From Petrosia ficiformis (taxonomy: Eukaryota; Porifera; Demospongiae; Haplosclerida; Petrosiidae), in NCBI GenBank assembly GCA_947044365.1, contig OX345641.1:7669065-7733064 (forward strand): a stretch of DNA of 64,000 bases. The letters are read 5' to 3'. Below the pieces are notes generated by a model. That model worked only from the letters and a program-made list of their open reading frames with translations, ran no database searches and had not been told where the DNA came from. Shown here one piece after another: positions 1,400-51,661 of this stretch (within the stretch, counting starts at the first letter, position 1; every line of letters begins with the position of its first letter). Both the position numbers and the translations under genes were made by a program.

Positions 1400-1442
1400 T
1401 CTTAATCTCTTCAGAAACTAAGACTTGGAATATAATCCATTA
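1400..1442 (+). other. Candidate 5' UTR exon before the array, copy 1
   Basis: A segment ending GGAATATAATCCATTA is followed by donor gtgagt at 1443. A 52-nt intron then runs to the acceptor before the ATG triplet at 1495. Copy 2 has the same arrangement with the same intron length (donor 21636, ATG 21688). The 5' limit of the exon is not defined by the sequence. Confidence 0.4.
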
Positions 1443-4400
1443 GTGAGTAATACAAATCCATCGCTAATTTATATTACATCTCTGATTCCATTAGATGGTG
1501 AGTGTAATATGTGTAATATATATAGTACATAGTTAATCATTTCTTACTTTTTGTGATTATCCATGGTGATGTTACTAGGGGGTAAGTGTGATCAATTATA
1601 ACTTATGTGATGAATAATAATTTACATTAAATTTTGTCATTCCTTTATTTCATTGTACACAATGTGATAATATTCAATCCACAATAGAACGTAAGTCTAT
1701 TCACAATGTTAATATGAGTATAATAATTATATCCATTTTTATTTTTCCTATTTTCCTTGATATTGTGAATCCTCCAGAAGGTAATTGAGTTCAATTTGTT
1801 CATAATTATTATCATTATTATTATTAACTCTCTTCCACAAAATAACACATAACTACATAGAATGTGAGTAAAATTTAAAAATTAATATGTGAAGTTTTGT
1901 ATATAGTAATTCTCATTAAAATCAATACATACATAAAGCAAATAAATTCATTTTATTCATATTTTACATTTCATGACAACACATCATTATGAATCCACTA
2001 TAGATGGTGAGTCTAATGAAACCTAATATATGTAATAGTATTGTATATTATCACTTTATTTCCTCTTTTTCATATCTTTGTGTCTTGATTCTATTTACGG
2101 CCCTTGTTTTCATTTCTTAATAACACATCATTATGAATCCACTATAGACGGTGAGTCTAATGAAACCTAATATATGTAATAGTATTGTATATTATCACTT
2201 TATTTCCTCTTTTTCATATCTTTGTGTCTTGATTCTATTTACGGCACTTGTTTTCATTGCTTAATAACACATCATTATGAATCCACTAGCCGGTGAGTCT
2301 AATGAAACCTAATATATGTAATAGTATTGTATATTATACCTAAAATGAATATTCATCCTTTGATGGGATGAGGTGTCTAAATGACGAATACACCTGGTAT
2401 CACATGACATGTCGACTAGGAGGTAGATAATCGCGAGTTAGATACCTGGAATCACGCGACACGAGGTATATAATTTTTTTTTATTCACCTAGCCACAACA
2501 AGGCAAAAAGGAGGGTTTAGTTGTGATATTGTGGTACAAAAATAACAACATCAAAAAAGTATGGAATTACCGACACAGCAGAAAATACAATTTGAAATAC
2601 TTCAACTATTGAAGCTCAGCAGAATGTTATTGTGATAACGCTCTGACACCTGCAGCATAATTTTCATTCTTGGAGTACTGATAGTACTGTAGTATAGGAA
2701 GACAGCAAGGCGAGTATGAAGGCAACGTCCTCACTTTACTCACCTGCATAACTTCCATATTTTAAACAGCACAGACTTTTAACTCACTTACTTTCACAGA
2801 AGAGCTTCCAACAAACCCATAAATATCAAAAATTATGCTTCGTTAGTTGTAGGAAAGCACCAAGGCGAGTGTTTCAGTGCTTCAGCCATAACCGTCACTT
2901 TCTTTCCATACGCAAATTAGAAATTGCGCAATATAAATTTGGCACCAAGAAAAACCACATCCTTGTTTTGTGGGTTTCTTCTGCTTTGTAGATTAGGTAT
3001 AAGACAGTTATAGGTCTTCAGGTCAGGATATTAGTTGTTTTAGAGCCCTCGCTTCGCTCGGGCTCTAAAACAACTAATATCCCTCCCCTCGACCTATAAC
3101 CTATACTTATTACTTTATTTCCTCTTTTTCATATCTTTGTGTCTTGATTCTATTTATGGCACTTGTTTTCATTTCTTAATAACACATCATTATGAATCCA
3201 CTAGATTGTGAGTCTAATATATGTAATAGTATTGTATATTATTACTTTATTTCCTCTTCTTCATATCTTTGTGTCTCGATTCTATTTACGACCCTTGTTT
3301 TCATTGCTTAATAACACATCATTATGAATCCACTAGTTTGTGAGTCTAATGAAACCTAATGTATGTAATAGTATTGTATATTATTACTTTATTTCCTCAT
3401 ATCTTTGTGTCTTGATTCTATTTACGACACTTGTTTTCATTGCTTAATAACACATCATTATGAATCCACTAGGATGTGAGTCTACTAATATATGTAATAT
3501 AGTATTGTAAATTATTACTTTATTTCCTCTACTTCATATCTTTGTGTCTTGATTCTATGTACGGCACTTGTTTTCATTGCTTAATAACACATCATTATGA
3601 ATCCACTAGGATGTGAGTCTAATGAAACCTAATATATGTAATAGTATTGTATATTATTACTTTATTTCCTCTTTTTCATATCTTTGTGTCTTGATTCTAT
3701 TTACGGCACTTGTTTTCATTGCTTAATAACACATCATTATGAATCCACTAGGATGTGAGTCTAATGAAACCTAATATATGTAATATAGTATTGTAAATTA
3801 TTACTTTATTTCCTCTTCTTCATATCTCTGTGTCTTGATTCTATTTACGGCACTTGTTTTCATTTCTTAATAACACATCATTATGAATCCACTAGCCGGT
3901 GAGTCTAATGAAACCTAATATATGTAATAGTATTGTATATTATTACTTTATTTCCTCTTTTTCATATCTTTGTGTCTTGATTCTATTTACGGCACTTGTT
4001 TTCATTTCTTAATAACACATCATTATGAATCCACTAGTCGGTGAGTCTAATGAAACCTAATATATGTAATAGTATTGTATATTATTACTTTATTTCCTCT
4101 TTTTCATATCTTTGTGTCTTGATTCTATTTACGACACTTGTTTTCATTGCTTAATAACACATCATTATGAATCCACTAGGATGTGAGTCTACTAATATAT
4201 GTAATATAGTATTGTAAATTATTACTTTATTTCCTCTACTTCATATCTTTGTGTCTTGATTCTATGTACGGCACTTGTTTTCATTGCTTAATAACACATC
4301 ATTATGAATCCACTAGGATGTGAGTCTAATGAAACCTAATATATGTAATAGTATTGTATATTATTACTTTATTTCCTCTTTTTCATATCTTTGTGTCTTG

Positions 4401-7010
4401 ATTCTATTTACGGCACTTGTTTTCATTGCTTAATAACACATCATTATGAATCCACTAGGATGTGAGTCTAATGAAACCTAATATATGTAATATAGTATTG
4501 TAAATTATTACTTTATTTCCTCTTCTTCATATCTCTGTGTCTTGATTCTATTTACGGCACTTGTTTTCATTTCTTAATAACACATCATTATGAATCCACT
4601 AGCCGGTGAGTCTAATGAAACCTAATATATGTAATAGTATTGTATATTATTACTTTATTTCCTCTTTTTCATATCTTTGTGTCTTGATTCTATTTACGGC
4701 ACTTGTTTTCATTTCTTAATAACACATCATTATGAATCCACTAGTCGGTGAGTCTAATGAAACCTAATATATGTAATAGTATTGTATATTATTACTTTAT
4801 TTCCTCTTTTTCATATCTTTGTGTCTTGATTCTATTTACGACACTTGTTTTCATTGCTTAATAACACATCATTATGAATCCACTAGGATGTGAGTCTACT
4901 AATATATGTAATATAGTATTGTAAATTATTACTTTATTTCCTCTACTTCATATCTTTGTGTCTTGATTCTATGTACGGCACTTGTTTTCATTGCTTAATA
5001 ACACATCATTATGAATCCACTAGGATGTGAGTCTAATGAAACCTAATATATGTAATAGTATTGTATATTATTACTTTATTTCCTCTTTTTCATATCTTTG
5101 TGTCTTGATTCTATTTACGGCACTTGTTTTCATTGCTTAATAACACATCATTATGAATCCACTAGGATGTGAGTCTAATGAAACCTAATATATGTAATAT
5201 AGTATTGTAAATTATTACTTTATTTCCTCTTTTTCATATTTTTGTGTCTTGATTCTATTTACGGCACTTGTTTTCATTTCTTAATAACACATCATTATGA
5301 ATCCACTAGTTGGTGAGTCTAATGAAACCTAATATATGTAATAGTATTGTATATTATTACTTTATTTCCTCTTTTTCATATCTTTGTGTCTTGATTCTAT
5401 TTACGGCACTTGTTTTCATTTCTTAATAACACATCATTATGAATCCACTAGTCGGTGAGTCTAATGAAACCTAATATATGTAATAGTATTGTATATTATT
5501 ACTTTATTTCCTCTTTTTCATATCTTTGTGTCTTGATTCTATTTACGGCACTTGTTTTCATTGCTTAATAACACATCATTATGAATCCACTAGTTTGTGA
5601 GTCTAATGAAACCTAATATATGTAATAGTATTTTATATTATTACTTTATTTCCTCTTTTTCATATCTTTGTGTCTTGATTCTATTTACGACCCTTGTTTT
5701 CATTGCTTAATAACACATCATTATGAATCTACTAGTGTGTGAGTCTAATGAAACCTAATATATGTAATAGTATTGTATATTATTACTTTATTTCCTCTTT
5801 TTCATATCTTTGTGTCTTGATTCTATGTACGGCACTTGTTTTCATTGCTTAATAACACATCATTATGAATCCACTAGCCGGTGAGTCTAATGAAACCTAA
5901 TATATGTAATAGTATTGTATATTATTACTTTATTTCCTCTTTTTCATATCTTTGTGTCTTGATTCTATGTACGGCACTTGTTTTCATTGCTTAATAACAC
6001 ATCATTATGAATCCACTAGCCGGTGAGTCTAATGAAACCTAATATATGTAATAGTATTGTATATTATTACTTTATTTCCTCTTTTTCATATCTTTGTGTC
6101 TTGATTCTATTTACGGCACTTGTTTTCATTTCTTAATAACACATCATTATGAATCCACTAGTCGGTGAGTCTAATGAAACCTAATATATGTAATAGTATT
6201 GTATATTATTACTTTATTTCCTCTTCTTCATATCTTTGTGTCTTGATTCTATGTACGGCCCTTGTTTTCATTTCTTAATAACACATCATTATGAATCCAC
6301 TAGAGGGTGAGTCTAATGAAACCTAATATATGTAATAGTATTGTATATTATTACTTTATTTCCTCTTTTTCATATCTTTGTGTCTTGATTCTATTTACGG
6401 CACTTGTTTTCATTTCTTAATAACACATCATTATGAATCCACTAGTCGGTGAGTCTAATGAAACCTAATATATGTAATAGTATTGTATATTATTACTTTA
6501 TTTCCTCTTTTTCATATTTTTGTGTCTTGATTCTATTTACGACCCTTGTTTTCATTGCTTAATAACACATCATTATGAATCCACTAGAGGGTGAGTCTAA
6601 TGAAACCTAATATATGTAATAGTATTGTATATTATTACTTTATTTCCTCTTTTTCATATCTTTGTGTCTTGATTCTATTTACGACCCTTGTTTTCATTGC
6701 TTAATAACACATCATTATGAATCCACTAGATTGTGAGTCTAATGAAACCTAATATATGTAATAGTATTGTATATTATTACTTTATTTCCTCTTTTTCATA
6801 TCTTTGTGTCTTGATTCTATTTACGACCCTTGTTTTCATTGCTTAATAACACATCATTATGAATCCACTAGGTGGTGAGTCTAATGAAACCTAATATATG
6901 TAATAGTATTGTATATTATCACTTTATTTCCTCTTTTTCATATCTTTGTGTCTTGATTCTATTTAAGACCCTTGTTTTCATTGCTTAATAACACATCATT
7001 ATATTATGGT
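1443..7010 (+). repeat. Tandem array of about 142-bp units with 3-nt microexons, copy 1
   Basis: Each unit ends in a T-rich tract and (c)cactag, then three bases, then gtgagt. Triplet starts: ATG 1495, GGG 1579, AAC 1688, AAG 1778, AAT 1861, ATG 2004, ACG 2148, CCG 2290, ATT 3205, TTT 3337, GAT 3473, 3610 and 3752, CCG 3896, TCG 4038, GAT 4180, 4317 and 4459, CCG 4603, TCG 4745, GAT 4887, 5024 and 5166, TTG 5310, TCG 5452, TTT 5594, TGT 5736, CCG 5878 and 6020, TCG 6162, AGG 6304, TCG 6446, AGG 6588, ATT 6730, GTG 6872. Most periods are 142, with some 136-144. The first five units have unrelated intron bodies (83-143 nt) but the same YAG-NNN-GTRAGT core; the one at 1778 has donor gtaatt. A final truncated unit near 7000 has no core. 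No triplet is a stop. Confidence 0.85.
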
Positions 7011-10000
7011 TTTGTTTGTCTATATTTATAAGTGTTGTGTTTCAATATTGTATTTAATGTTTTGGTGTATTGAGTTAGTGGTGTTCTGTTTTTAATTATT
7101 AACTGTACTCTACTGTACTGTACATATAAAAATACATTAATAATAATTTTTTAATCATATAGAGAGAAAGGGAGAGAGAAAGGGAGAGAGAATGTAAGTG
7201 CACATCTGTTATATAATTATGTAATAGTGATTGTTGTATCAATCATATGATATTTGTATTTGTATATAGAATCATTGTAACATGTAATAACTATCTATAT
7301 AGACACATACAATATCACAAATATATAATGTGTATTATATATTATATTGTATAGCAGTTTATAAAAATAAGATATGATTACTGTGTATTATAATGATGTA
7401 CTATCATTAAATTTCATCTTTACAAGTCTATGTTCATATTGCTACCCATACAATTAATGTGTTGTATAATAATTATTATGCCTATTATATAGGTACATGA
7501 TTTTTATTAATTTTTGTTGTGGTTGACATTTTATTTTCTCTTGTTTTGTACTCCTGTACATGTGTATGTATCTTAAAATCATTTGTTCAGCTTATAGAAA
7601 AGCTCTTTCACAAGGAGAGTTAGCTGTTGCCTATTCTCGTATTATGCTGATCGGATCAGCTGGCGTTGGGAAGAGTAGTCTGAAACGTGGACTAATGCAC
7701 TTACCATTTGATGCAAGAATAAACAGTACCATTATTGCTGATGTTCAATCAGTACGACCCAATGTTCCATTACTACGACCTGTGGGTTTCCAGTGGGCAA
7801 TGGCAGGAGATGAATGTAATAAAGGATGGAGAGGGGTGACCCCAGAGGATGAAATAGAGGAATTAGCTCAATTAATTTCCATTGTCTACAAGCAACCAGA
7901 AGATCGTGGCACTTCTTCAGCTCTAAAGGCAGCTTCTGCTCTTTTTTCACAAGTCATTCCAATTACGTCAGATGCTTCACAAAAGTATCATAGTTCAGAA
8001 ATAGAGCAGATGGTTGAAGAAATTCTTTCTCCTGCCATGAAGCGAGCAAGTGAGATGCATCGCTATGATATTGAACACATAAAACCACATCCTTTCTTTC
8101 ATGTTTGGGATTGTGGTGGTCAGCCAGTGTTTCTAGAGGTATTACCAGCATTTCTCACTTCACGTACCATGTTCCTCCTCCTCTTTGATGCCTCTATAGA
8201 TTTCAATACTAGATTGAAGGCTATACAGTACCAACAAGGAAAGAAGATTGAGGAAGGAGAAGTCAACATGACCACACTTGAGCTTATGGAGGGGTGGATG
8301 GCAAATATTCATGGCCATCTTGCAAAATATGATGATAAGGGTGGTTTAGTTGAGTATCCTCAAATTGTTGCTGTTGGCACTCGAGGAGATAAATTGACCA
8401 AAATAGACAAGAGTGAAGTGAAAGCAAATCTGGAACAGTGTCTAGAAGATACTTCCGAAAGTCAGAAAGACAAAAAGTTTTTACGACTATTAACAGATGT
8501 CATCATTGTTGATAATACTACATCAGGAAAGGGAGAGGATGAAGATAAAGCATACCAGTATTTACGAAAGGAGATTTACAATTTCACAAGCAAGAAACTT
8601 GCTGTCAGAACACCAATTAAATGGGTTCTTTTTCGTAAAGTTTTACAGTCGTTAGCAGAGAAATCAGTAAATACCATCACTCTGAGTGAGGCAGGTGATA
8701 TTGGTATTGCCTGTAACATCACACCTGAAGATGTTCCCAGTGTCCTCAATTTCTATCATGAGCTGGGTGTGATATTATTCTACTCTCACATCAAGGGCCT
8801 TCAAGAGAAAGTCATTCTTAATCCAAAGTGGTTTGTGGAATGTCTTGGAAAGGTCCTCACACTTCCAGGTAGAGAAGAATATAAGCAAAAAGATATGTGG
8901 AAGCTTCTTCGTGAGAAGGGCATTCTTATACAGGATCTATATGTAGCTGTATGGCAAGAATGTGAGGGGATTTATCCCGACGAAATGGTCCAACTACTCG
9001 TTAGTTTTCACTTAGCAGCTAAAGTCCAGACAGATGAGTCTGGTGAACGAAAATCCAAACAGTTCTTTGTACCTGCAGTGCTTCCAACAGGAGATCCGTC
9101 ATCAGCTCTGCCTCCTGGATATTACCATAGAGCTACTCCACTACACATTACGTTTGGGACAGGTTATGTCATACCAGGCTTTTTTACACGTCTTGTCACC
9201 ACAATCGCTGAATCACCTCAATGCCAACTTTACTTCCGCGATGGTATTTTTCGAAATAGAGTGACATTAGAATTTGGAGATATCAAGCTTCCCATCAATC
9301 GTATCACACTTACCGAGCTGTCTAATGCAATTCAAGTAGAATTGTTACGTTATGTTCCCGATGTGCCCACTCTAACGCCAATAAAAAAAAGTTGTCAAGA
9401 TTTACAGGTAATAATGTAATTATATACACTTGTATGATACATTAAATATAGCAATGTCACTAATAATGATAGGGTTAATTATAACACATGTACATAATAT
9501 AGAGTGCTAGTGTTCCATTTGTTATTATAATTAGGTATTATGTAAGACTTAATTTGTTTATAATACATGCAGGTTCTTCTGAAGACCTGTTCTCGGGAGG
9601 TAGAAGAAAGCCTACAGTCCAGTAATGTATCAATCTATACTGATGTTAAAGAAATGGCTGTTTCTAATGTTACAAGAGAAGTAAAGTTTTTATGTCAAGG
9701 GTTAGAATGTAATTCTTCCTCAGATCCTCACTATCTACTTCCTCTACCTGGTCAAACATGTGAGATTGATATTCAATGTGAGAAAAGCCGAGTTTATAGG
9801 AAGCTTACTCGTAATGAAGCATACTGGTTTCCTGGAAATATTGAAGGTGAAGTTAATAATTATTTTATAATTAAGCATAAAATGTGTATTATAATTGTAG
9901 TACTATAACAGGAGATAAAAAACCCTTTGAATAACAATTATGAAGCAAAAGAAGACATTATTGCTTTAATGTCATTATAGCCTTTTTACTGAATGCATGA

Positions 10001-13000
10001 ACATAGTACAACTTCTGTACTGTACTAATGTATAAAATGTAGTGTTTGAGCAAGGTCGAGTGCACAGAAGACTTCATTATGATATGCAGGCATAAGAGAA
10101 TTCTCATATTAGTGTTTAAACATTCGCTCACATACGGACCGTCTTGTGGTTGGTTACAAGATGTGTCTACATCTCTGTATCAGACCTGAGATTAAGTGTT
10201 TTCATGATGCAAGCTAAAATATTGAGGGGCCAGGCCTCTCTTGTCAAAATATTGACGGGACAGGCCCCCTTGCCACTGTTCTTACTCCTACGTAAATAGA
10301 AGATCAAACACTGGGGATGACCATTACAAGCATCGCACTACTTGCAATATCAAAGTAGTGGCACTTGCTATAATTATAGTTTACCATTTATATAATAGTT
10401 ATGATTATTTTATAATGATAGTACATTTGTTTGCTAAACTATTTCTGTAGAGCCCCTTGATCATACCACATCACATAGCCAACAGACACAACAACAGCAA
10501 GAATGCAGTTCACAAATCCAACCTCAACCAATACCACAATCTCAGAATCCTTTAACACGTAAGAATTATGATTGACATTTCAATAGTATTTGAATGATCA
10601 ATAACATAGTACATGTAGACTAACTACTAGATAAACTGATATAACATTCTTAAATTGTTTGTTCTTCATTAAAAGTGTTATAAATAATAGTAAAACAATA
10701 CTTGAACTAATTACAACACATAAATAACTATACTTATGTGTATGTCAGACTTATAAATACTATCATTTCTCAGTTGCTAGTGTTTCTATACTGAATAAAT
10801 CACCAGAGCCCCTAGATGTTTATCATTTGCTGCGAGAAAAGTCAGCTGATTGGAAAGCATTTCGCAGAGAGATGAACCTTCATGATAACTATGAAGACAC
10901 ATTGGCACGAGATCCCCGTCTTAATGATGATGATAGATTGTATAAGGTGTTCACAAAGTGGATTGAGGCAGAGCCATCTCCAGTCACATGGGCCAAGATT
11001 CTTGAGATATTGCAAATCCTACATTTTCTAAATATCGCAAAAAAAGTGAGAGATTACTTACAAGATGGTGATGTGATTAAGAAATACAGCAAGAAAGAGG
11101 ATTATTCTGGTTAGTGTAGTTACTTTAGTTTGAACTGTGCTAACCATTCTGATGATAATTATTATGTATGAAATGGAAATAATTGACTCTGTTATTATAA
11201 TTAATTTCTATGGAATTAATTGTGAGGTTGGGATGACAACTGTTTAAATGTATGATTACAGCAGTATTACAGCTACATGTGGATCCTGTGAAATTCAAAT
11301 AGCTGTAGATTTTTGTGAGCCTCTGCTAAAGCAAATTTACGGTATTTAATTACAATCAAGATGAAAATATTTATTTACGTTTTTCTCAAAATGGAAGATT
11401 AATGACTTTGAAAATTTACTAGGTATTCAAGGCTATGTCTTCATCTTGATTGGGATGTATGATATTCCATTCTAGAGCTAATTAACACTCTACGCAAAAA
11501 CAAAATCTTCAGAGCAGGTCATATGTATATAATAATTTATCAAAGCAATGCACACCCTTATTGTTGCTGGTCATTATCATGATAGTGCTAAAACTAGTAT
11601 TATGATATTGCTACTTACTATCATGATAATGTTACTATATATCAATACTATTGCTGCCCATGAATTTGTTTAACACAATAAGCTAAGCAAACTGTTTGCA
11701 TTGAAAGGATTCTCTAAAATTGAAGGCATGTTGTGTTAATGACTTGTATTGTAAACATTACAAGACAAGTCGTTATTTAGATGCAAATTGTTAGAGCAGC
11801 ATCTCACAATATTATAAATAAAATGCTGCATTGCAAACTCATCTTTTAAGTATTATCAAGCAGATCGAAAAAATTGAATCTTTAGTTCATTAACACATAA
11901 ATATACTGGTTCACTTCTCTATCATTTTGAAAACTGACTTATGATGTTTGTAAATTCTCTAATTAAACAGCTCCAAACATTTGCTATTTGAAATGTATGA
12001 AGACTGTGTATATCATAGATATTTTCTTTACTATTTGGTTATTAATTTATAACATGTTTAGGTGCTACAAGTACAACCCCTCCTCTGGATTCGGTATCAA
12101 ACAAACCACGAAGTACTACTAGTACAGCCCCTTCTCTGGATTCGATACCAAAAAAACCACAAAGTACTAAAAGTACAATTCATCCTCCTATACCAAAGAG
12201 ACGACGAAGTACTACAAGTACAATCCATCCTCCTATACCAAAGAAACCACAAATTACTACAACTACAACCCCTCCTCTGGATTCGATACCACAAACTACT
12301 ACCAATACAGCCTCTCCTCTGGAATCGATACCAAAGAAACCACAAAGTACTACCAGTACAATCCGTCCTCCTATACCAAAGAGACGACGAAGTACTACAA
12401 GTACAATCCATCCTCTTATACCAAAGAAACCACAAGGTACTACAAATACAACCCCTCCTCTGGATTCAGAACCAAAGAAACCACAAAGCACTACAAGTAC
12501 AATCCGTCCTCCTATACCAAAGAAACCACAAAGTACTACCAGTACAGCCCCTCCTCTGGATTCGATACCACAAAGTACTACCAGTACAGCCCCTCCTCTG
12601 GATTCAATACCACAAGGTACTACAAATACAACCCCTCCTCTGGAATCGATACCAAAGAAACCACAAAGTACTACCAGTACAATCTGTCCTCCTATACCAA
12701 AGAAACCACAAATTACTACCAGCACAGCCACTCCTCTGGATTCGATACCAAAGAAACTACAAAGTACTACCAGTACAGCCCCTCCTCCAGATTCAATACC
12801 AAAGAAACCACAAAGTACTACAAATGCAATCCGTCCTCCTATACCAAAGAAACCACAAAGTACTACCAGTACAGCCCCTCCTCTGGATTCGATACCACAA
12901 AGTACTACCAGTACAGCCCCTCCTCTGGAATCGATTTCAAAGAAACCACAAAGTACTAGCAAAACAATCCGTCCTCCTATACCAAAGAGACGACGAAGTA

Positions 13001-14217
13001 CTACAAGTACAATCCATCCTCCTATACCAAAGAAACCACAAGGTACTACAAATACAACCCCTCCTCTGGATTCAGAACCAAAGAAACCACAAAGCACTAC
13101 AAGTACAATCCGTCCTCCTGTACCAAAGAAACCACAAAGTACTACAAGTACAGCCCCTCCTCTGGATTCGATACCACAAACTACTACCAATACAGCCTCT
13201 CCTCTGGAATCGATACCAAAGAAACCACAAAGTACTACAAGTACAATCCGTCCTCCTATACCAAAGAAACCACAAAGTACTACCAGTACAGCCCCTCCTC
13301 TGGATTCGATACCACAAACTACTACCAGTACAGCCCCTCCTCTGGATTCGATACCGCAAAGTACTACCAGTACAGCCCCTCCTCTGGATTCGATACCACA
13401 AACTACTACCAATACAGCCTCTCCTCTGGAATCGATACCAAAGAAACCACAAAGTACTACCAGTACAATCCGTCCTCCTATACCAAAGAGACGACGAAGT
13501 ACTACAAGTACAATCCATCCTCCTATACCAAAGAAACCACAAGGTACTACAAATACAACCCCTCTGGATTCAGAACCAAAGAAACCACAAAGCACTACAA
13601 GTACAATCCGTCCTCCTATACCAAAGAAACCACAAAGTACTACCAGTACAGCCCCTCCTCTGGATTCGATACCACAAACTACTACCAGTACAGCCCCTCC
13701 TCTGGATTCGATACCACAAACTACTACCAATATAGCCTCTCCTCTGGAATCGATACCAAAGAAACCACAAAGTACTACCAGTACAATCCGTCCTCCTATA
13801 CCAAAGAAACCACAAATTACTACCAGTACAGCCCCTCCTCTGGATTCGATACCAAACAAACCACAAAGTACTACCAGTACAGCCCCTCCTCTGGATTCAA
13901 TACCACAAATTACTACCAGTACAGCCCCTCCTCTGGATTCGATACCAAACAAACCACAAAGCACTACCAGTACAATCCGTCCTCCTATACCAAAGAAACC
14001 ACAAATTACTACCAGTACAGCGCCACCTCTGGATTCGATACCAAACAAACCACAAAGTACTACCAGTACAGCCCCTCCTCTGGATCCGATACCAAAGAAA
14101 CTACAAAGTACTACCAATACAGCCCCTCCTCTGGATTTGATACCACAAAGTACTACCAGTACAATCTGTCCTCCTAATGTGGAAGACTATTTATGTGAAG
14201 AAGTGGTCAAAAAATAG
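1495..14217 (+). CDS. Roc-COR GTPase with Death domain, microexon N-terminus and S/T/P tail (copy 1)
   Basis: Proposed exons: 35 three-nucleotide microexons (1495-6874), 7163-7193, 7591-9407, 9573-9846, 10451-10558, 10774-11109 and 12062-14217. All phases agree and the sum is 1,609 codons including TAG at 14215. The 7591-9407 exon encodes a Roc GTPase: P-loop GSAGVGKSS, switch-II DCGGQP (from 8109) and a G4-like VGTRGDKL. A COR-like region follows. The next exon adds a Cys-bearing segment, then comes a Q-rich linker, a six-helix Death domain (10828-11100) and a 718-codon Ser/Thr/Pro repeat. Roc-COR proteins bind GTP and usually dimerise; the Death domain suggests apoptotic or innate signalling in the cytosol. 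The start is inferred: the first microexon is ATG. The GTPase and Death exons are secure; the microexon part needs transcripts. Confidence 0.75.
2337..3105. mobile_element. 770-bp insertion in a microexon intron, with a long terminal hairpin
   Basis: The distance between the triplets at 2290 and 3205 is 915 bases instead of 142. The extra DNA lacks repeat sequence and has no open frame. Near its right end is a perfect 21-bp stem (3028-3048 with 3060-3080, 11-base loop), flanked by an outer pair gttataggtc / gacctataac (3007-3016, 3091-3100). I found no clear terminal inverted repeat, and at most a 3-base duplication (TAT). A non-autonomous element is likely; the class is unknown. Confidence 0.6.
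7163..7193 (+). CDS. Charged R/E exon joining array to GTPase, copy 1
   Basis: This 31-nt exon lies between acceptor tcatatag and donor gtaagt. Read in the frame fixed by the next exon it starts in phase 0 and encodes RERERERERE, plus one base that completes a Ser with the GTPase exon. The paralogous exon in copy 2 is 79 nt. Both are 3n+1, and the phase is what makes the upstream triplets whole codons. It probably forms a highly charged helix. Confidence 0.65.
12062..14217 (+). CDS. Ser/Thr/Pro repeat exon, C-terminal tail of copy 1
   Basis: The acceptor is aacatgtttag. In the phase set by the Death exon (G|GT) the frame stays open for 718 codons and ends VEDYLCEEVVKK then TAG at 14215. Repeats include STTSTAPPLDSIP, KKPQ, STIRPPIP and an occasional basic KRRR. 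It is low complexity with many possible phosphorylation or O-glycosylation sites and SH3-like PPIPKK motifs; a flexible tail is likely. Two other frames (one plus, one antisense) are also long and open because the repeat lacks stops. I chose this one for phase continuity and for its exit into unique sequence. No equivalent exon exists in copy 2. Confidence 0.65.
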
Positions 14218-21635: not shown

Positions 21636-24600
21636 GTGAGTAAAACAAATCCATTGCTAATCTATACTACATCTCTGATTCCACTAGATGGTGAGTATAA
21701 TATGTATAATATAGTACTAAATCATTTTCAATTATTACTTTTTGTGATGATTGTCCATGGTTTATGGCCCTTCTTTTCATTTCTTAATAACACATCAATA
21801 TCAATCCACTAGGAGGTGAGTCTAATGAAACCTAATATAGTATTGTAAATTATTACTTTATTTCCTATCTTTGTGTCTTGATTCTATTCACGGCACTTGT
21901 TTTTATTTCTTAATAAAACATCATTATGAATCAACTAGTGGGTGAGTCTAATGAAACCTAATATATGTAATAGTAATGTAAATTTATTTACTCTTTTTCA
22001 TATATTTGTGTCCTGATACTATTTACGGCCCTTGTTTTCATTTCTTAATAACACATCATTATGAATCCACTAGTGGGTGAGTCTAATGAAACCTAATATA
22101 TGTAATAGTATTATGAATTATTACTTTATTCCTCTTTTTCATATCTTTGTGTCTTCATACTATTTACGCCCTTGTTTTCGTTTCTTAATTACACATCATT
22201 ATGAATCCACTAGACGGTGAGTCTAATGAAACCTAATATATGTAATAGTATTATGAATTATTACTTTATTCCTCTTTTTCATATCTTTGTGTCTTGATTC
22301 TATTTACGGCCTTGTTTTCGTTTCTTAATTACACATCATTATGAATCCACTAGACGGTGAGTCTAATGAAACCTAATATATGTAATAGTATTATGAATTA
22401 TTATTTTATTCCTCTTTTTCATATCTTTGTGTCTTGATTCTATTTATGGCCCTTGTTTTCATTTCTTAATAACACATCATTGTGAATCCACTAGGATGTG
22501 AGTCTATTCAAACCTCATATATGTAATAGTATTGTATATTATTACTTTATTTACTTTTTCATATATTTGTGTCCTGATACTATTTACGGCCCTTCTTTTC
22601 ATTTCTTAATGACACATCATTATGAATTATTAGCGGGTGAGACTAGTGAAACCTCATATATGTAATAGTATTGTAAATTATTACTTTATTTCTTCTTTTT
22701 CATATCTTTGTGTCTCGATTCTATTTATGGCCCTTGTTTTCATTTTTCATTTCTTAATAACAAATCATTGTGAATCCACTAGGATGTGAGTCTAATGAAA
22801 CCTAATATATGTAATAGTATTGTAAATTATTACTTTATTTTCTTTTTTTCATATCTTTGTGTCTTGATTCTATTTATGACCCTTGTTTTCATTTCTTAAT
22901 AACACATCATTATGAATCTACTAGTGGGTGAGTCTAATAAAACTTAATATATGTAATAGTATTGTAAATTATTACTTTATTTCCTCTTTTTCATATCTTT
23001 GTGTCTTGATTCTATTTATGACCCTTGTTTTCATTTCTTAATAACACATCATTATGAATCCACTAGTTGGTAAGTCTAATGAAACCTAATATATGTAATA
23101 GTATTGTAAATTATTACTTTATTTTCTTTTTTTCATATCTTTGTGTCTTGATTCTATTTACGGCCCTTGTTTTCATATCTTAAATAACACATCATTATGA
23201 ATCCACTAGCCTGTGAGTCTAATGAAACCTAATATATGTAATAGTATTGTAAATTATCACTTTATTTCCTCTTTTTCATATCTTTGTGTCTTGATTCTAT
23301 TCATGGCACTTGTTTTCATTTCTTAATAACACATCATTATGAATCTACTAGTTGGTGAGTCTAATGAAACCTAATATATGTAATAGTATTGTAAATTATT
23401 ACTTTATTTCCTCTTTTTCGTATCTTTGTGTCTTGATTCTATATATGGCCATTGTTTTCATTTCTTAATAACACATCATTATGAATCCACTAGTCGGTGA
23501 GTCTAATGAAACCTAAAGTATTCTAAATTATTACTCTTTTTCATAACTTTGTGCTTTGATTCTATTTACGGCCCTTGTTTTCATTTCTTAATAACACATC
23601 ATTATGAATCCACTAGACGGTGAGTCTAACGAAATCTTATATATGTAATTGTATTGTAAATTATTACTTTATTTCCTCTTTTTCATATCTTTGTGTCTTG
23701 ATTCAATTTACGGCCCTTGTTTTTCTTTCGTAATAACACATCATTATGAATCCACTAGATGGTGAGTCTAATAGAACATAATATATTGTATATTATTACT
23801 TTATTTCCTCTTTTTTTATATCTTTGTGACTTCATTCTATTTACGGCCCTTGTTTTCGTTTCTTAATAACACATAATTATGAATCCACTAGAATGTGAGT
23901 CTAAATACGTATATCTAATAGTATTGTAAATTATTACTTTATTTCCTCTTTTCATATCTTTGTGTCTTGATTCTATTTACGGCCATTGTTTTCATTTCGT
24001 AATAACACATCATTATGAATCCACTAGATGGTGAGTCTAATGAAACCTAATATATGTAATAGTATTGTAAATTATTACTTTATTTCCTCTTTTTCGTATC
24101 TTTGTGTCTTGATTCTATATATGGCCCTTGTTTTCATTTCTTAACAACACATCATTATGAATCCACTAGATGGTGAGTCTAATGAATATGTAAAAGTATT
24201 CTAAATTATTACTTTATTTCCTCTTTTTCATAACTTTGTGTCTTGATTCTATTTACTGCCCTTGCTTTTCATTTCTTAATAACACACCATTATGAATCCA
24301 CTAGGTGGTGAGTCTAATGAAACCTAATATATGTAATGGTATTGTAAATTATTACTTTTTTCATATCTTTCTGTCTTGATTCTACTTATGGCTCTTGTTT
24401 TCATTTCATCATATATTGTGAATCCACTAGCGGGTGAGTCTAATGAAACCTAATATATGTAATAGTATTGTAAATTATTACTTTATTTCCTCTTTTTTCA
24501 TATCTTTGTGTCTTGATTTTATTTACGGCCCTTGTTTTCATTTCTTAATAACACATCAATATGAATCCACTAGCGGGTGAGTCTAATGAAACCTAATATA

Positions 24601-25409
24601 TGTAATAGTATTGTAAATTATTACTTTATTTCCTCTTTTTCATGTCTTTGTGTCTTGATTCTATTTACGGTCCTTGTTTTCATTTCTTAATAACACATCA
24701 TTATGAATTCACTAGGAGGTGAGTCTAATGAAACCTAATATATGTAATAGTATTCTAAATTATTACTTTATTTTCTATTTTTCATATCTTTGTGTCTTGA
24801 TTCTATTTACGGCCCTTATTTTCATTTCTTAATAACACATCATTATGAATCTACTAGGTGGTGAGTCTAATGAAACCTAATATATGTAATAGTATTGTAA
24901 AGTATTACTTTATTTTCTCTTTTTCATATCTTTGTGTCTTGATTCTATTTACTGCCTTTGCTTTTAACACATCATTATGAATCCACTAGACTGTGAGTCT
25001 AATGAAACCTAATATATGTAATAATATTATAAAGTATTACTTTATTTCCTCTTTTTCATATCTTTGTGTATTCTATTTACGGCCCTTGTTTTTCATTTCT
25101 TAATGACACATGATATGAATCCACTAGGAGGTGAGTCTAATGAAACCTAATATATGTAGTAGTATTGTAAATGATTACTTTAATTCCTCTTTTGCATATC
25201 TTTGTGTCTTGATTCTATTTACGGCCCTTGTTTTCATTTCTTAATAACACATCATTGTGAATCTACTAGGAGGTGAGTCTAATGAAACCTACTGTATGTA
25301 ATAGTATTCTAAATTATCACTTTATTTCCTGTTTTTCATATCTTTGTGTCTTGATTCTATTCACGGCTCTTGTTTCATTTTTGTAATAACACATCTAATT
25401 TTCATATAG
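21636..25409 (+). repeat. Tandem array of about 142-bp units with 3-nt microexons, copy 2
   Basis: Same unit design as copy 1, with older and more diverged intron bodies. Triplet starts: ATG 21688, GAG 21813, TGG 21939, TGG 22074, ACG 22214, ACG 22354, GAT 22495, CGG 22634, GAT 22783, TGG 22925, TTG 23067, CCT 23210, TTG 23352, TCG 23494, ACG 23617, ATG 23759, AAT 23892, ATG 24028, ATG 24170, GTG 24305, CGG 24431, CGG 24574, GAG 24716, GTG 24858, ACT 24990, GAG 25128, GAG 25270. Donors are gtgagt except gtaagt at 23070 and gtgaga at 22637. The gap is always exactly three bases although intron length varies from about 120 to 150. No stop codon occurs. Confidence 0.85.
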
Positions 25410-28400
25410 AGAGAAAAGCAGAGAGAAAAAAAGAGAGAAAAGCAGATAGAAAAGCAGAGAGAAAAAGAGAGAGAAAAGGAGAGGGAATGTAAGTTTAATT
25501 ATGTAATGGTGATTGTTATATCAATCATATGACATTTGTATTCATACATAGAATGATGATAAGATTTAATAACTATTTATATAAACATACAATATCACAA
25601 ATATATAATGTGTATTATAATTATATTATATAGCAGTTTATAATTGAAGGGCTCAGAGGTAAAGTGGGCTAACCCAAAATCAAATACTGGAAATCATCCA
25701 TAGTGCATAAAAATGCATTAAAAATTAGGTGTATTCCACTGCCAAAATTGAAATATTTTTGATTTCTTAATTTTTATTTGCCCCTGAAACACATTTTAAG
25801 AGTGTTTTCATGTTAATCTCAGTGTATTGCTGTTTTGTGGGTTAGACCACTTTACTTCTCAGCTCTTCAATTATAAGGTATGATTACATTAAAATTGTGA
25901 TGATGTACTATCAATAAATTTCATCTTTACAAGTCTATGTTCATATTGCTACCAGTACAATTAATGTGTTGTATAAAGCTCATTATGCATATTATGTAGG
26001 TACAAGATTATTATTAATTGTTGTAGTTGATATTTTTATCTTCTCTTGTTTTGTACTCCTGTATGTATCTTAAAATCATTTATTCAGCTTATAGAAGAGC
26101 TCTTTCACAAGGAGAGTTAGCTGTTGCCTATTCTCGTATTATGCTGATTGGATCAGCTGGTGTTGGGAAGAGTAGTCTGAAACGTGGACTAATGCACTTA
26201 CCATTTGATGCAAGAATAAACAGTACCATTATTGCTGATGTTCAATCACTACGACCTGACATCCAATCGATACAACCCAATGTTCCATCACTACGACCTG
26301 TGGGTTTGGAGTGGGCAATGGCAGGAGATGAATGTAATAAAGGATGGAGAGGGGTGACCCCAGAGGATGAGATAGAGGAATTAGCTCAATTAATTTCGAT
26401 TGTCTACAAGCAACCAGAAGATCGTGGCACTTCTTTGGCTCTAAAGGCAGCTTCTGCTCTTTTTTCACAAGTCACTTCAATTACGTCAGATGCTTTACAA
26501 GAGATTATTAGTTCAAAAAAAAAGCAGATGGTTGAAGAAATTCTTTCTCCTGCCATAAAGCGAGCAAGAGAGATGCGTCACTATGATATTGAACACACAA
26601 AACCACATCCTTTCTTTCATGTTTGGGATTGTGGTGGTCAGCCCATTTTTCTAGAGGTATTACCAGCATTTCTCACTTCACGTACCATGTTCCTTCTCCT
26701 CTTTGATGCCTCTATAGATTTCAATACTAGATTGAAGGCTATACAGTACCAACAAGGAAAGAAGATTGAGGAAGGAGAAGTCAACATGACCACACTTGAG
26801 CTTATGGAGGGGTGGATGGCAAATATTCACGGCCATCTTGCAAAGTATGATGATAGGGGAGGTTTAGTTGAGTATCCTCGAATTGTTGCTGTTGGCACTC
26901 GAGGAGATAAATTGACTATTACTGAGAAGAGTGAAGTGAAAGCAAATCTGGTTAGGTGTCTAGAAGACACTTCCAAAAGTCAGAAAGACAAAACGTTTTT
27001 ACGACTATTAATGGATGTCGTCATTGTTGATAATACTACATCAGGAAATGGAGAGGATGAAGATGAAGCATACCAGTATTTACGAAAGGAGATTTATGAT
27101 TTCACAAGCGAGAAACTCGTTGTCAGAACACCAATTAAATGGGTGCTGTTTCGTAAAGTTTTACGGTCATTAGCAGAGATATCAGTAAATACCATCACTC
27201 TGAGGGAGGCATGTGCTATTGGTATTGCTTGTAACATCACACCTGAGGATGTTCCTAGTGTCCTTAAATTCTATCATGAGCTAGGTGTGATATTATACTA
27301 CTCTCGCATCAAGGGCCTTCAAGAGAAAGTCATTCTTAATCCAAAGTGGTTCGTGGAATGCCTTGGAAAGGTCCTCACACTTCAGGGTAGAGAAGAATTT
27401 GAGCAAAGAGATATGTGGAAGCTTTTTCATGAGAAGGGCATTCTTGTACAGCCTCTATATGTAGCTGTATGGAAAGAATGTGAGGGGATGAATCCCGAGG
27501 AAATGGTGCAACTACTCGTTAGTTTTCACTTAGCAGCTGAAGTACAGACAGATGAGTTTAGTGAACGACAATCCAAACAGTTCTTTGTACCTGCAGTGCT
27601 TCCAACAGGAGATCCATCGTCAGCTCTGCCTCCTGGATATTACCATAGAGCTACTCCACTACACATCACGTTTGGAACAGGTTATGTCATACCAGGCTTT
27701 TTTACACGTCTTGTCACCACAATGGCCGAATCGCCTCAATGCCAACTTTACTTCCGTGATGGTATTTTTCGAAATAGAGTGACATTAGAATTTGGAGATA
27801 TCAAGCTTCCCATCAATCGTATCACACTTACTGAACTCTCTAATGCAATTCAAGTAGAATTGTTACGTTATATTCCCGATGCCCCCACTCTAATGCCAAT
27901 ACAAAAAAGTTGTCAAGATTTACAGGTAATAATGTAATTATATACACTTGTATGATACATTAAATATAGCACATCACTAATAATGATAGGCATAATCATA
28001 ACACATGTACATAATATAGAGTGCTAGTGTTCCATTTGTTATTATAATTAGTATTTGTGTAACAATTAGTGTGTTTATAATACATGCAGGGTCTTCTGGA
28101 GGCCTGTTCTCAGGAGGTAGAAGAAAGCCTACAGTCCACTAATGTATCAGTCTATACTGATGTTAAAGAAATGGCTGTTACAAGAGAAGTCAAATTTTTA
28201 TGTCAAGGGTTGGAATGTAATTCTTCCTCAGATCCTCACTATCTACTTCCTCTACCTGGTCAAACATGTGAGATTGATATTCGATGTGAGAGAAGCCCAG
28301 TTTATAGGAAGCTTACTCATGATGAGGCCTACTGGTTTCCTAGAATTATTGAAGGTGAAATTATACATAGTCATAATTCTTTTATGTATTATAATTGTAG

Positions 28401-46875: not shown

Positions 46876-47102
46876 AGTCTTAATTATTACTGGACATCAA
46901 TGATGAATTTTATTGTTGCCACACCGTAAATTGCATTTTAGATTGTATATGTAATCATGTACAGAGGTTGTAGGAAGGAAACAGCTTCAATCATAGGGAT
47001 GACCGTATCTTATTATAAAAAAGGTTAATTATAATAGGTGTGGGAAATATTTGACACTTCCTGTGATCACGACCAGTCTGAACAAGATACTCCTTCTTCA
47101 TC

Positions 47103-50100
47103 ATGTCTGAATGCTTTAGACCGAATCTACAACAACTAATGGAAGAGCTACAACCCATTGGTTTAAAATGGCGACTATTCGGCCTTTTTTTGGGAGTACC
47201 AATTGACTTACTCAATGAAATAAATATAGCGAATATTCGTATTGAGGACAAGCTATTTGCTGTATGCAATACTTGGCTAAATGGGACACTCGATGTTACA
47301 TGGAAGGATGTTGTCAAAGCTGTGAAGAAAATAGAGAGATTAGATATCGCACAAAAGGTTGAAATGAAATACATAAAACAGTCCCAAGAACAGCCATGCA
47401 GCTCAGACAAGCCATTCAGTTCCATTCGACCAAATCTAATACAACTAATGGAAGAGTTAAAATTTGGTAGTATGAAGTGGCAAGAATTCGGACTTTTTTT
47501 GGGGATATCAATTGATGCACTTGATTTAATAAATGTAGATGAAGCAAATATTGAGAACAAGTTATTAGCTGTGTGCCATAAATGGCTTCAAACTAATCCC
47601 TTTGGTACGTGGAACAATATAGTAGAAGCTTTGCGAAGAATTGGGGAAATGGTATTAGCAGAGGAATTGGTAATGAAGTACATGAGGCAACACCCATTTG
47701 AAGAGTTCCAACAACCTGAATCTTTTTGTATACAAAATGATGAAGCACAAAATCTTTTCTTAGAATCTTCTCTTACAACAGCAATGCAAGAAGGAGGTGG
47801 GAAGATCAAACCTTGTAATATCACCATGTACGGTCGTCCAGGAGCTGGTAAGACTAGCTTGAAAAGGGTTATATTCGGACTACCTCCTCCAATCTTAAAA
47901 ATACATACTACAAATGTTTTAGAGAAGGCTGTTCATCATAGTACAGTACGTACTGATCGATTCACCATTGATGGAAGCAAGTTAGTCGAGGTTGATGATG
48001 AAGAACTTATCAAGTTGCTAGCAATGAAAGTCCAGAGTCTTCATGTAACCAGTCCCCAACTGCAACACAAACCCGTGAGTAGATAAATACAAATTGTTGG
48101 AGTAACTAATTTATTGGTTAATACATGGATGCTGTAGCTACATTGTAATTCTAATTTTAGACAGCAAATATAAAACATGATGGGGCCAACCAACCACATC
48201 CTAAAGGGAGGTGGACCTTACATTGAATAGTTTCATTTTGTCAAAATAGGGGAGTGGGCTCTCACAAATTTGGGTGCTTTGTATGATGTAACTATACTCA
48301 ATAGTCACAAACGTTTGTAGTTATAACTTCCTTATGCGTTGTCATATTGATATGCAACAAAGACCATTCCACTCATCATAACTTGCCAAATCCAATCAAT
48401 GTGTGATATGATTGCGAATCATAAACTATAAGATACATTAGGGCCTGCACTTGAGCACAGAAATACCTAAGACTACAAAGAATTTACAAGCAGCTTTAAA
48501 ATAAGTGCTTTATACATATAAGAGGTACTATGTAAGAGATACTATGTAAATTATACACTGCAATTATTAAAATATATATTTCTATTCTCTATCACTACTG
48601 ATGCTGCCATCTGATCCTGAATTATGCATTCTAAGAATCAGCAGTCTTTTTACATAACTTAGGTGGAGTAGACAGACATCTGTCTTAGTTTGCCAATCAA
48701 AGTTGTCATGTACATTAGTCTTTGAGGTGCTCTTGACTCACTTTCATTTAATGTTGACAACAAGTTCGGGTTAATAAACACTTTCCTAAAACCTTCCTGC
48801 CAAGACAGTGCCTATACATGAGGTAACTACATGCTCACGTCAGAGTCCACAAACACGTAATAATTTTACATTCCAATGATGCAATTCTTCTAACGTTGAC
48901 TTCCACAACTCCCGAACTTGAATAGACTAAAAAACCTATTCTTCCAACTATAATAACCATTGACCAATGATTAGTTATTTTTATAATTTTTCATTACATT
49001 TTCATTCCAATAGACAATAAATGCACTTATAAACACTCGCATATGAATAGAAGTTAAATTTTTATGTCAATGCTTATACTGTGGTGAGATTAAGACTCCT
49101 GCTTTAGAACAATCCTTTTAAGGGCGATTATGCCCATAATGACCTTGAGGCAGGGAGGGAGGTATAATAATGATAATGCATTTGTAATATATTTGTAATT
49201 CTTAGAAAAGATTTGTAAATGATGACAAGAAGTGACTGTCCAAAAGTGTAAAGTTATGGCCATAATTATAACTCCCCTGTTGTGCATCAAAGGTTACCAT
49301 GACAACAAACTGCACACCATGGTTGAGCTTTTTATGATTATTGTCCCTTTGGCCTCATGTATTCAACAGACCACGGGCTCACAGACTGCAGAATAATTTA
49401 ATATTCATTAAAAAGTAAATATTCATAATATTACATGCTTAGAAATCAAATCCACAGTCGAACAAATATCTGAAAGATCTGTGTACTTAGACAGCATACT
49501 GATATTATGTATAATTTCTTCTAATTATCACAGGAGTCACAACAATCTATATCTGTTGAATCTGTGAGTGTTTCTCCTCAAATTACTAGTTATTCAGAAG
49601 CTATGAGATCTATCAAAGAGCAACTACCTAAAGTCAAACCATCAAATGAGCTATTTGATGTCGATTTGATTTACATGATCAATTCTGGAAACGAGCCACA
49701 GCTACTAGACATATTTCCTCTTCTGTTTTGTAATTTAGCACATCACATAGTAGTGATAAGGCTAGATGAAAGGCTTGACGACAAGCCAAAACTACATTTC
49801 TACGATAAAGAAAAAGATGTATATTATACACTTCCAGATCATTTAACACTTTCTAATCGAGAATTTATAGTTAGGACTTGTCAAATGGCAGAAGCTGTTG
49901 CCCAGGCAACCTCAGGAAAATTTATCCCCTGGGTGATGGTAGTTGGTACACACAAAGATAAGCTGGGAATCAACAGTGAAGCAGAGCTTAAAGAGATCAA
50001 CAGCGAGCTGACAAAAATACATCAAAAGTACAGTCGTGTTCTGATTCGCAAGTCCTCAGATGAGGTAATCTTTGCTGTGAATGCTATGGCTCCAGATGGA

Positions 50101-51661
50101 GAGGAACGCCAACAATACACTGAAGAGCTTAGTAAGTATATTTTGGAGGCAGTAAAGAAAACACCAAATGTGATTGATGTACCTTTGAAATGGCATGCAT
50201 TCTACCTCGATTTAGTCAAAAGAGGAGGTATTGTTCGAAAATCAGAATACTTCAAGAAAGATGATTTACTCGAAATGGGAAAGGGTGATGGCGAAGTAGC
50301 CCTGAAGTATTTCCACAATGTAGGATTATTTATTTACCACCCAGATGACGTTCCTGACTTGATATTCACAAATCCGGATCTGCTCCTTAGCAGACTATTT
50401 AGGTTAATCAAGGCCTCTTTTATTTCTCCAGGACTTGGTCCAACAGGAGAGAGTGAGAGATTGAGACAAAAAGGATTGTTTAACAAATCGTTTCTCTCCA
50501 CAGTATTTCATGATCTTGATCCTAGTCGAGACGAATTCTCCAATGATGAATTCCTGAATCTACTCGAGTGTTTATTGGCTGTCGTTCACACTGGAAAAGA
50601 TGAGTACTTTCTTCCGATTGCATTATCATTTGAGCCTTATTCTGATGATCCTCCGTTTAAGCCTAGCTGTGTTCCCCTTCTATTTATTTGGAATGGACAC
50701 ATTACACCTCATGGTTTCTTCTTTACTTTAGTTGTTGAGTTGCTGCAGAAAGAGAAATATGGAAATGTTTTTAATATTGAGCTGCACAAAGTCAATCAGT
50801 ACCGTGATGCGATACAGTTAACCATAGCAGAGAGTAAAATACATGAACCAGGTATTGTAAAACTAATGGACAAAGAGCAATGGATAGAAATACGCTACTC
50901 TTGTAGTACTACAAGATATTGCTTCGATCTTCGAAATACTATTGGCTATGCTATCAACAGTGTGATGAAACGTCTTAACCTCACAGGTATTGAGCCTCCT
51001 CGAATTGGTTTTCATTGTCATCTCTGTTGTTCAGATAACCACTATTGTGTTCTCTCACATGATGAAAATAGGGTTCAGTGTTTTGACTGTGATGGTCCGG
51101 TAACACCTGACATGTTGTGTTGGATAAACAAATCTAAGGGTTAGTGCATTGTATGTGGATTGTACCTATACTAGTATAATGTACTTGAAACAATGCAAGA
51201 CATGTATATGTGGAGTAGCAAATGCAACTGCATTACATATGCATTGCCTATATAACGTACAAAATGTCAGATTTTACAGAATGTAAGCTAGATAAATACA
51301 TATATTCACATAGACAATGATATCAGATCGGATCTGATAATACAATTTGCAGTATAGATGTATAGCCAAGCTGTGGTATACATGTAGGTCCAACCACATA
51401 ATTAAAAGTCTGCTTGTTGATGACTAGTTGTGTTTTAAGTTGTCTTTTTATAGTACTATGTTAGCTCTTCTATATGGCTGAATTTCACTTGTAAACTCAA
51501 GCTCGCAGTAATGTAACAAACACCAAGAGTGAATAGTAATAATCTATAATTATGTCTCTATTCTACAGTTGAATATCTACTCAAAATGTATAAAGAAATG
51601 TATCAATTGGCAGTAGAACTTGGTTCTGAAAAAAAAGAAATGAAGGCGTTAACAACAGGTG

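Follow-up and report, generated by a model that had tools for sequence, protein, structure and literature searches.

We analysed a 64,000-nucleotide stretch of the genome of the marine stone sponge Petrosia ficiformis (C6:7669065-7733064, hereafter the window), in which two arrays of three-nucleotide (3-nt) units, copy 1 and copy 2, each stand upstream of a gene for a Roc-COR (ROCO) GTPase. The triplets in these arrays and in paralogous arrays elsewhere in the genome are very probably spliced, translated single-codon exons that encode a fast-diversifying N-terminal peptide. As an overall explanation, we consider it likely that 3-nt exons are spliced into the hypervariable N-terminal peptide of the Roc-COR gene, that units are duplicated or exchanged, and that selection acts at the amino acid level. 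All results concern this one genome, of which 191,215,263 bases in 29 contigs were scanned, and were obtained at the level of the DNA sequence.

Structure of the arrays in the window

A unit scan of the window retrieved 35 units of the form YAG-NNN-donor in copy 1, with triplets starting from 1495 to 6872 and an array end at 6874. A preliminary description of this DNA had reported the same count and span. It had also assigned a GT(G/A)AGT-type donor to every unit, which held in the strict form GTRAG[T/C] for 34 of the 35; the sole exception is the AAG at 1778, followed by GTAATT. In 200 dinucleotide shuffles, strict units averaged 0.05, with a maximum of 1. The triplets are ATG GGG AAC AAG AAT ATG ACG CCG ATT TTT GAT GAT GAT CCG TCG GAT GAT GAT CCG TCG GAT GAT GAT TTG TCG TTT TGT CCG CCG TCG AGG TCG AGG ATT GTG. 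The introns measure 80-141 nt in 33 of 34 cases, and the remaining intron holds an insert. Tandem Repeats Finder detected 26.8 copies of a 142 base pair (bp) repeat at 94% match between 3214 and 7002; most copy 1 introns are therefore tandem copies of near-identical sequence, and variation is greatest at the bases of the exons. The earlier remark that intron bodies differ applies mainly to the first units.

In copy 2, the strict donor was present in 26 of the 27 units, the first of which (21688) is ATG. Since ATG is the first triplet in each of the two copies, the start codon of both may be a 3-nt exon of its own. The predicted exon upstream of copy 2 ends similarly to that of copy 1 (CCCATTA/GTGAGT), but its acceptor differs.

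Exon size

The sequence of fourteen array regions was read directly, although for some (L018, L033-L038) in part only. Over these regions, YAG-N{L}-GTRAG[T/C] matched 208 times at L=3, 10 times at L=6 and twice at L=9. The other gap lengths within 0-30 gave at most 6 matches each, length 0 occurring once, and at L=3 there was no antisense match. Matches at lengths 23 (five) and 29 (six) came mostly from the five C2:11.5M paralogues.

Three paralogues on C13 (L053, L054 and L056) have diverged introns, with a mean column identity of 59% in a three-way alignment. Seven or eight microexons are nevertheless in register in all three, one of them of 6 nt, and two more are common to two sequences. 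The registered triplets, in the order L054/L053/L056, are ACG/ACG/ACG, GAG/GCG/GCG, CCG/CCG/CCA, ATT/ATG/AGT, ATG/AAG/AAG and TTG/TTG/CTG. A further registered microexon, AGG, is found in all three, although L053 may use a 6-nt exon there, and the registered 6-nt microexon reads CCATTC, ACATGG and CATATG across the three genes. The acceptor of the CCG/CCA microexon is AAG in two of the three. Judged from these alignments, diverged paralogues keep the size and splice sites of the predicted microexons while several codons change.

Reading frame and absence of stops

The frame is open from the first triplet of copy 1 through Roc-COR to the Death-domain exon, and from the first triplet of copy 2 into Roc. 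The preliminary description had placed the start of the exon after the array in phase 0, and we obtained the same phase, with an end in phase 1. That description also had the gene close at 1,609 codons, a frame that we followed as far as the Death-domain exon. In L052, an exon ending in ATGACT/gtaagt is followed by 39 triplets and a phase-0 exon, with the frame open into Roc, and the predicted peptide is MT-NPNLLNPPLLFSYDSSPSLSPSSPDSSAVRYFSAAIPSV-LKDQISYDDLKEV... In L051, ATGGATGAAGATCTACAA precedes gtaagt and is followed by ELLEERLIRRLLREELE, which resembles an amphipathic helix by eye. The triplets of this array (C1:35325506-35335505, minus strand) are GAA, CTT and AGA with one ATT, and its peptide looks helix-like. 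In L054, ATGGCTAGT precedes gtgagt (by eye). ATG exons with a phase-0 end were thus recognised by eye in L051, L052 and L054. The predicted N-termini of copy 1 (MGNKNMTPIFDDD..) and L052 (MTNPNLLNPP..) run into the Roc GTPase, and were judged for a signal peptide by eye only.

No stop codon was found in copy 1, as had been described, nor among all 212 triplets of the arrays. The expected number was 7.5, and none of 5000 permutations, in which bases were shuffled within codon position and array, was as low. When distinct triplets were counted once per array, there were no stops against 4.3 expected (P=0.005). The joined triplets contain stops in the other two frames, 13/198 and 19/198.

Variation and probable selection in the triplets

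Diversity at codon positions 1, 2 and 3 is 0.75, 0.74 and 0.54 in copy 1, compared with 0.00-0.43 over 22 positions on each side. The respective values are 0.75, 0.74 and 0.28 in the C2:11.5M cluster (L033-L037), where flanking columns range from 0.00 to 0.15, save six at 0.50-0.58 that separate intron types. Among unit pairs whose flanks are at least 99.5% identical over 120 bp, the triplet differs in 81% of 48 pairs in the C2:11.5M cluster and in 53% of 45 in copy 1. Fourteen units with identical flanks (24 nt on the left and 30 nt on the right) carry ACG, GCG, GGG, CCG, ATA or AAT. Differences at codon positions 1 and 2 have reached saturation, and this holds also for units whose flanks are identical.

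Block duplicates that lie in register allow a cleaner comparison of triplets with their surroundings. Of the three copies of a five-unit block in copy 1, A and B are identical and C is off by 2/15 triplet bases (CCG to TTG) and 3/692 other bases. Pooled over in-register block duplicates, 4/39 triplet bases changed versus 14/1504 others (about 12-fold odds, p=0.0008), a ratio that excludes the copy 1 pairs A-B (0/15, 0/692) and A-C (whose counts equal those of B-C). The neighbours L036 and L037 are identical in Roc (1740/1740), and their last six units differ at 7/18 triplet bases versus 18/649 others, although units may be out of true register between the two genes. Recombinant flank combinations were found around triplets (4 A-C and 2 C-G of 39), which is consistent with exchange with breakpoints near the triplets.

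The third base is family-specific, being G throughout L018, T in 36/39 triplets of L052, and A or T in L051. Because the latter array lacks a single majority third base, tests of departure from that base are given both without and with L051. Without L051, departures occurred in 4/94 fourfold codons and 33/101 other codons (p=3e-7); with L051, in 10/100 and 34/112 (p=3e-4). For distinct triplets, the figures were 4/46 versus 20/59 (p=0.002) and 5/47 versus 21/62 (p=0.006), respectively. In a within-array permutation, 10 fourfold departures compared with 21 expected (P=0.0002), and 5 with 11.3 among distinct triplets (P=0.005). In copy 1, each third-base T sits where G would encode another amino acid. 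The predominance of amino-acid-altering changes at the third base points to selection on amino acids, if the triplets are read as codons.

A 36th copy 1 unit at 1443 (TAG-TGA-GTAAT), whose triplet would be a stop, was rejected and read as the donor of the upstream exon. With this unit kept, there is 1 stop in 213 triplets, and the non-fourfold count without L051 becomes 34/102 instead of 33/101.

Association with Roc-COR genes across the genome

With 72 of 487 candidates scored, a protein search with the Roc exon returned at least 84 matches, which are spread over 8 contigs; the 69 used for the distance check include some pieces of one gene. A Roc-independent search with the pattern TAG-ATG-GTRAGT, 105-135 bases, YAG-NNN-GTRAGT found 35 places, versus 1+1 in the reversed control. 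All 35 lie on the same strand and upstream of one of 16 Roc genes at distances of 0.8-15.7 kilobases (kb), 33 of them no further away than 7.4 kb and the remaining two 15-16 kb away. Among 26 representative listed places of the 3-nt pattern, 25 were followed by a Roc place downstream on their own strand. The exception, the C1:9.64M minisatellite, had none within 5 megabases (Mb).

Of about 70 Roc-COR GTPase places, at least 31 were found to have two or more consecutive units upstream in the same orientation. This tally is a lower bound compiled from the listed places, most other upstream regions having been seen at most in part; 26 genes were counted through listed 3-nt pattern places or array reading, and five through the pair pattern only (one on C3, one on C4 and three on C9). 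Intron families differ between gene clusters.

Downstream genes and other features of the window

The features of the two loci are listed in Table 1. The Roc and COR-A domains are in that order and above their Pfam cut-offs (5e-10 and 1.2e-17), as is the Death domain (2.1e-05), which was found in frame in copy 1, the only paralogue in which its frame was checked. The nearest solved chains were 4wnr and 3dpu. A protein collection yielded 866 homologous proteins, which come without genomic context, and at the DNA level no relative was detected in the viral contigs or prokaryote genome contigs searched.

Table 1. Features of copies 1 and 2, in window positions
Feature	Position	Strand	Basis
Predicted 5' untranslated exon without ATG, end CCATTA/GTGAGT	1415..1442	+	sequence reading
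Copy 1 array, 35 three-nucleotide exons (predicted)	1495..6874	+	unit scan, repeat finding, donor check
First single-codon exon, ATG, candidate start codon	1495..1497	+	unit scan; inferred
773-bp insert in the intron after unit CCG at 2290	2338..3110	.	sequence reading
Three 707-bp block copies of five units	3403..5523	+	block comparison
31-nt exon following the array, start in phase 0, end in phase 1 (RERERERERE)	7163..7193	+	frame reading
Roc + COR-A exon (1817 nt)	7591..9407	+	Pfam Roc and COR-A
Exon continuing the frame (274 nt)	9573..9846	+	frame reading
Exon continuing the frame (108 nt)	10451..10558	+	frame reading
Death-domain exon (336 nt)	10774..11109	+	Pfam Death; frame reading
Copy 2 array, 27 three-nucleotide exons (predicted; MEWWTTDRDWLPLSTMNMMVRREVTEE)	21688..25272	+	unit scan, frame reading
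79-nt exon following the copy 2 array, start in phase 0, end in phase 1	25410..25488	+	frame reading
Copy 2 Roc + COR-A exon	26088..27925	+	Pfam; end inferred from copy 1 donor

The 773-bp insert has the appearance of a mobile element; a perfect inverted repeat of 23 bp lies close to one of its ends, and the splice sites of its host intron are intact. The exons directly after the two arrays contain a 12-bp purine-rich repeat (RE/REK); their lengths are unlike, and both end in phase 1. Past the Death exon of copy 1, positions 12046-14217 hold a coding tandem repeat with a unit of about 45 bp, rich in Pro, Lys, Ser and Thr, in a 723-residue open frame; long open stretches occur in the other frames too. 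A separate Death-domain gene lies at 47082-51144. It has a P-loop-like motif by eye (GRPGAGKTS), only its Death domain scored above the Pfam cut-off, and the unit scan picked up no microexon array for it.

Proposed mechanism and alternatives

In the explanation we favour, the array would be transcribed within the downstream Roc-COR gene, together with the Death domain in copy 1. Ordinary splicing would remove the short introns, each triplet exon leaving one codon, and most transcripts would include most triplets in order. The resulting N-terminal peptide, placed before the Roc domain, would be hypervariable and at most about 40 residues long. The array would grow and shuffle in the manner of a minisatellite, its introns probably homogenised by conversion or unequal exchange; because each unit is one codon plus one intron, duplication, deletion or exchange of units could not break the frame. 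Selection at the amino acid level would keep or make the codons differ, and the probable role of the peptide is therefore recognition, specific to each gene, in a family that resembles innate immune genes. Intron identity combined with codon saturation would mean either that exchanges across triplets are removed by selection or that triplets mutate faster. Splice sites, exon size, phase, the absence of stops, the amino acid bias and the association with Roc all appear to support this explanation. The preliminary description had likewise proposed one codon per exon, in phase 0 and joined to the GTPase. That proposal gains support from the paralogues (at least 31), the phase-0 ATG exons and the lack of stops in 212 triplets, and also from the 3/6/9-nt sizes, their preservation in diverged paralogues and the bias at the amino acid level.

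Several observations weigh against this explanation. The splicing is a prediction and is drawn from genomic DNA only. A 3-nt exon has no room for exonic enhancers and crowds its two splice sites, and we know of no precedent for a long series of such exons. Homogenisation alone does not explain why the codons were spared. In L051, unlike other arrays, triplets mostly track intron type. No array was found in the 9.6 kb read upstream of L055, a distant paralogue. When the first 1.5 kb or so upstream of 23 loci was read, an array was present there in L038 only; of the other 22, eight have units further upstream and 14 are known to about 1.5 kb only. Array units are related by duplication, so the P values overstate independence, a problem that the distinct-triplet tests reduce and do not remove. 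Raw pattern counts alone do not discriminate 3-nt arrays either: genome-wide, the 3-nt pattern had 396+194 matches versus 2+25 in the reversed control, and a 4-nt control pattern had 7+258 versus 187+242 (265 versus 429), its listed places being 64-bp satellites in all but the first two. Because raw counts also fit satellites, we rely on Roc adjacency, triplet variability and coding signatures.

The exons could be real and each transcript include a variable subset of them, one gene thus giving rise to a large repertoire of N-terminal peptides. We regard such combinatorial inclusion as possible, if somewhat unlikely. Near-identical introns would permit any donor to pair with any later acceptor, skips of frame-neutral exons of 3, 6 or 9 nt would never shift the frame, and many units have near-identical or identical flanks, so their splice sites would compete equally. 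However, introns of about 70-160 nt favour intron-defined splicing between nearest neighbours, and the selection signatures fit constitutive inclusion equally well. A broader proposal, which we hold to be doubtful, is a codon-by-codon diversity system, in which the recognition end of dozens of immune-like GTPases would be encoded as interchangeable one-codon exons and varied through combinatorial splicing in one animal or through a germ-line process focused on triplets, the frame never being broken. The variation might also come from a mutator or templated process altering the bases between the splice sites far faster than others, with splicing and function as the filter. The triplet differences between units with flanks at least 99.5% identical (53% in copy 1, 81% in C2:11.5M) and the six triplets carried by the 14 units with the same 24/30-nt flanks would fit this process. 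Third bases, however, change mainly where the amino acid changes, which argues for selection, and in L051 the triplet is mostly the same in units whose flanks are near-identical (0/3 pairs differ at flanks of at least 99.5% and 3/21 at 98-99.5%). We know of no mechanism that targets such triplet sites, and targeted codon mutation is in our judgement improbable.

Two further alternatives deny the triplets a coding role, and we give hardly any credence to either. Juxtaposed acceptors and donors look like recursive-splicing (ratchet) sites, which would aid the stepwise removal of a long intron, the three bases being irrelevant. Such sites require zero-length exons, whereas length 0 occurred once and length 3 occurred 208 times. 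Stepwise removal would also leave three bases in the RNA, and neither the absence of stops nor the nonsynonymous third-base bias fits this role. The arrays might otherwise be a non-coding minisatellite upstream of the gene that is never exonic, and real minisatellites with similar motifs do exist in this genome. One in L058 (C1:9638000-9647999, from about 4333) has a 66-bp unit with a nearly constant YAG-CGG-GTGAGT core and could serve as a non-exonic control; 64-bp satellites fitting YAG-N4-GTRAGT lie at C1:57338206-57340323 and C1:58733182-58738173. The core of the L058 minisatellite, however, hardly varies, and the closest Roc place downstream of it on the same strand is 5.1 Mb off. In the arrays, by contrast, introns are unrelated from one cluster to the next, AG and GT are invariant, codons vary with an amino acid bias, and a Roc gene lies downstream. 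Insertion of an introner at every codon was set aside as well: the third base depends on the array family (G, T or A/T), which would not be so in an ordinary coding sequence that had been interrupted, and all insertions would need one phase.

Comparison with known systems

If transcripts confirm the exons, they would represent an uncommon route by which a protein is assembled and diversified residue by residue. Exon reduction would be extreme, with an exon equal to one codon, up to 39 times per gene, and with units upstream of at least 31 genes. Such genes would test how the spliceosome defines serial 3-nt exons, and would allow single residues to vary without risk to the frame, possibly giving an animal of an early-branching lineage a repertoire for innate recognition. 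Exons of 3 nt are probably missed by ordinary annotation and aligners, so the most variable part may be absent from the proteins predicted for this family.

The genes downstream of the arrays share with other Roc-COR GTPases the common Roc and COR-A domains; in the sponge, the N-terminus would come from one-codon exons, and Death follows in copy 1. As in coding minisatellites and Dscam-type exon arrays, tandem duplication would supply protein variation, but the repeat unit here is one codon plus an intron, not a domain-size exon. In the open-licence literature, to which the search was confined (subscription papers and preprints lay outside its scope), we found no array of 3-nt exons and no micro-exon array in a sponge. 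Isolated ultra-short exons include a 3-bp exon in Drosophila homothorax (PMC7392893), a 1-nt exon in Arabidopsis (PMC4674806) and plant microexons of 1-15 nt (PMC8831610, PMC12409088). They indicate that one codon or less can be spliced; in the available portions of these papers, however, they are single or few, not arrays of tens. In the fungus Dactylellina haptotyla, duplicated lipS lipase genes have two 3-nt exons (PMC5639578), so that, as in the sponge, there is more than one per gene, but that source, as far as available, describes two only and no array or hypervariability.

The closest likeness is to the micro-exon genes of schistosomes and tapeworms. The flatworm exons are given as 3-81 bp in the abstract of PMC10526429 and as 6-81, mostly 15, in its text, with introns to about 5 kb and secreted protein products. 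In the accessible parts of this source and of PMC7653826, micro-exon genes also string together many very short exons whose lengths are multiples of three, are neutral in frame to skipping, resist annotation, are a proposed source of protein variation and in some cases belong to tandemly expanded gene families. Set against those descriptions, the sponge exons are nearly all exactly 3 nt (3 nt in 208, 6 in 10 and 9 in 2, instead of mostly 15), they are mostly tandem copies with near-identical short introns, and their codons are hypervariable and placed before Roc-COR GTPases. The tandem one-codon unit with saturated codons appears to have no described counterpart in those texts. PMC7653826 gives an operational rule of at least seven exons, with micro-exons making up at least half. 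Because 35 of the 40 coding exons predicted in copy 1, followed to the Death exon, are 3 nt long, we place the sponge gene with the micro-exon genes, of which it would be an extreme variant.

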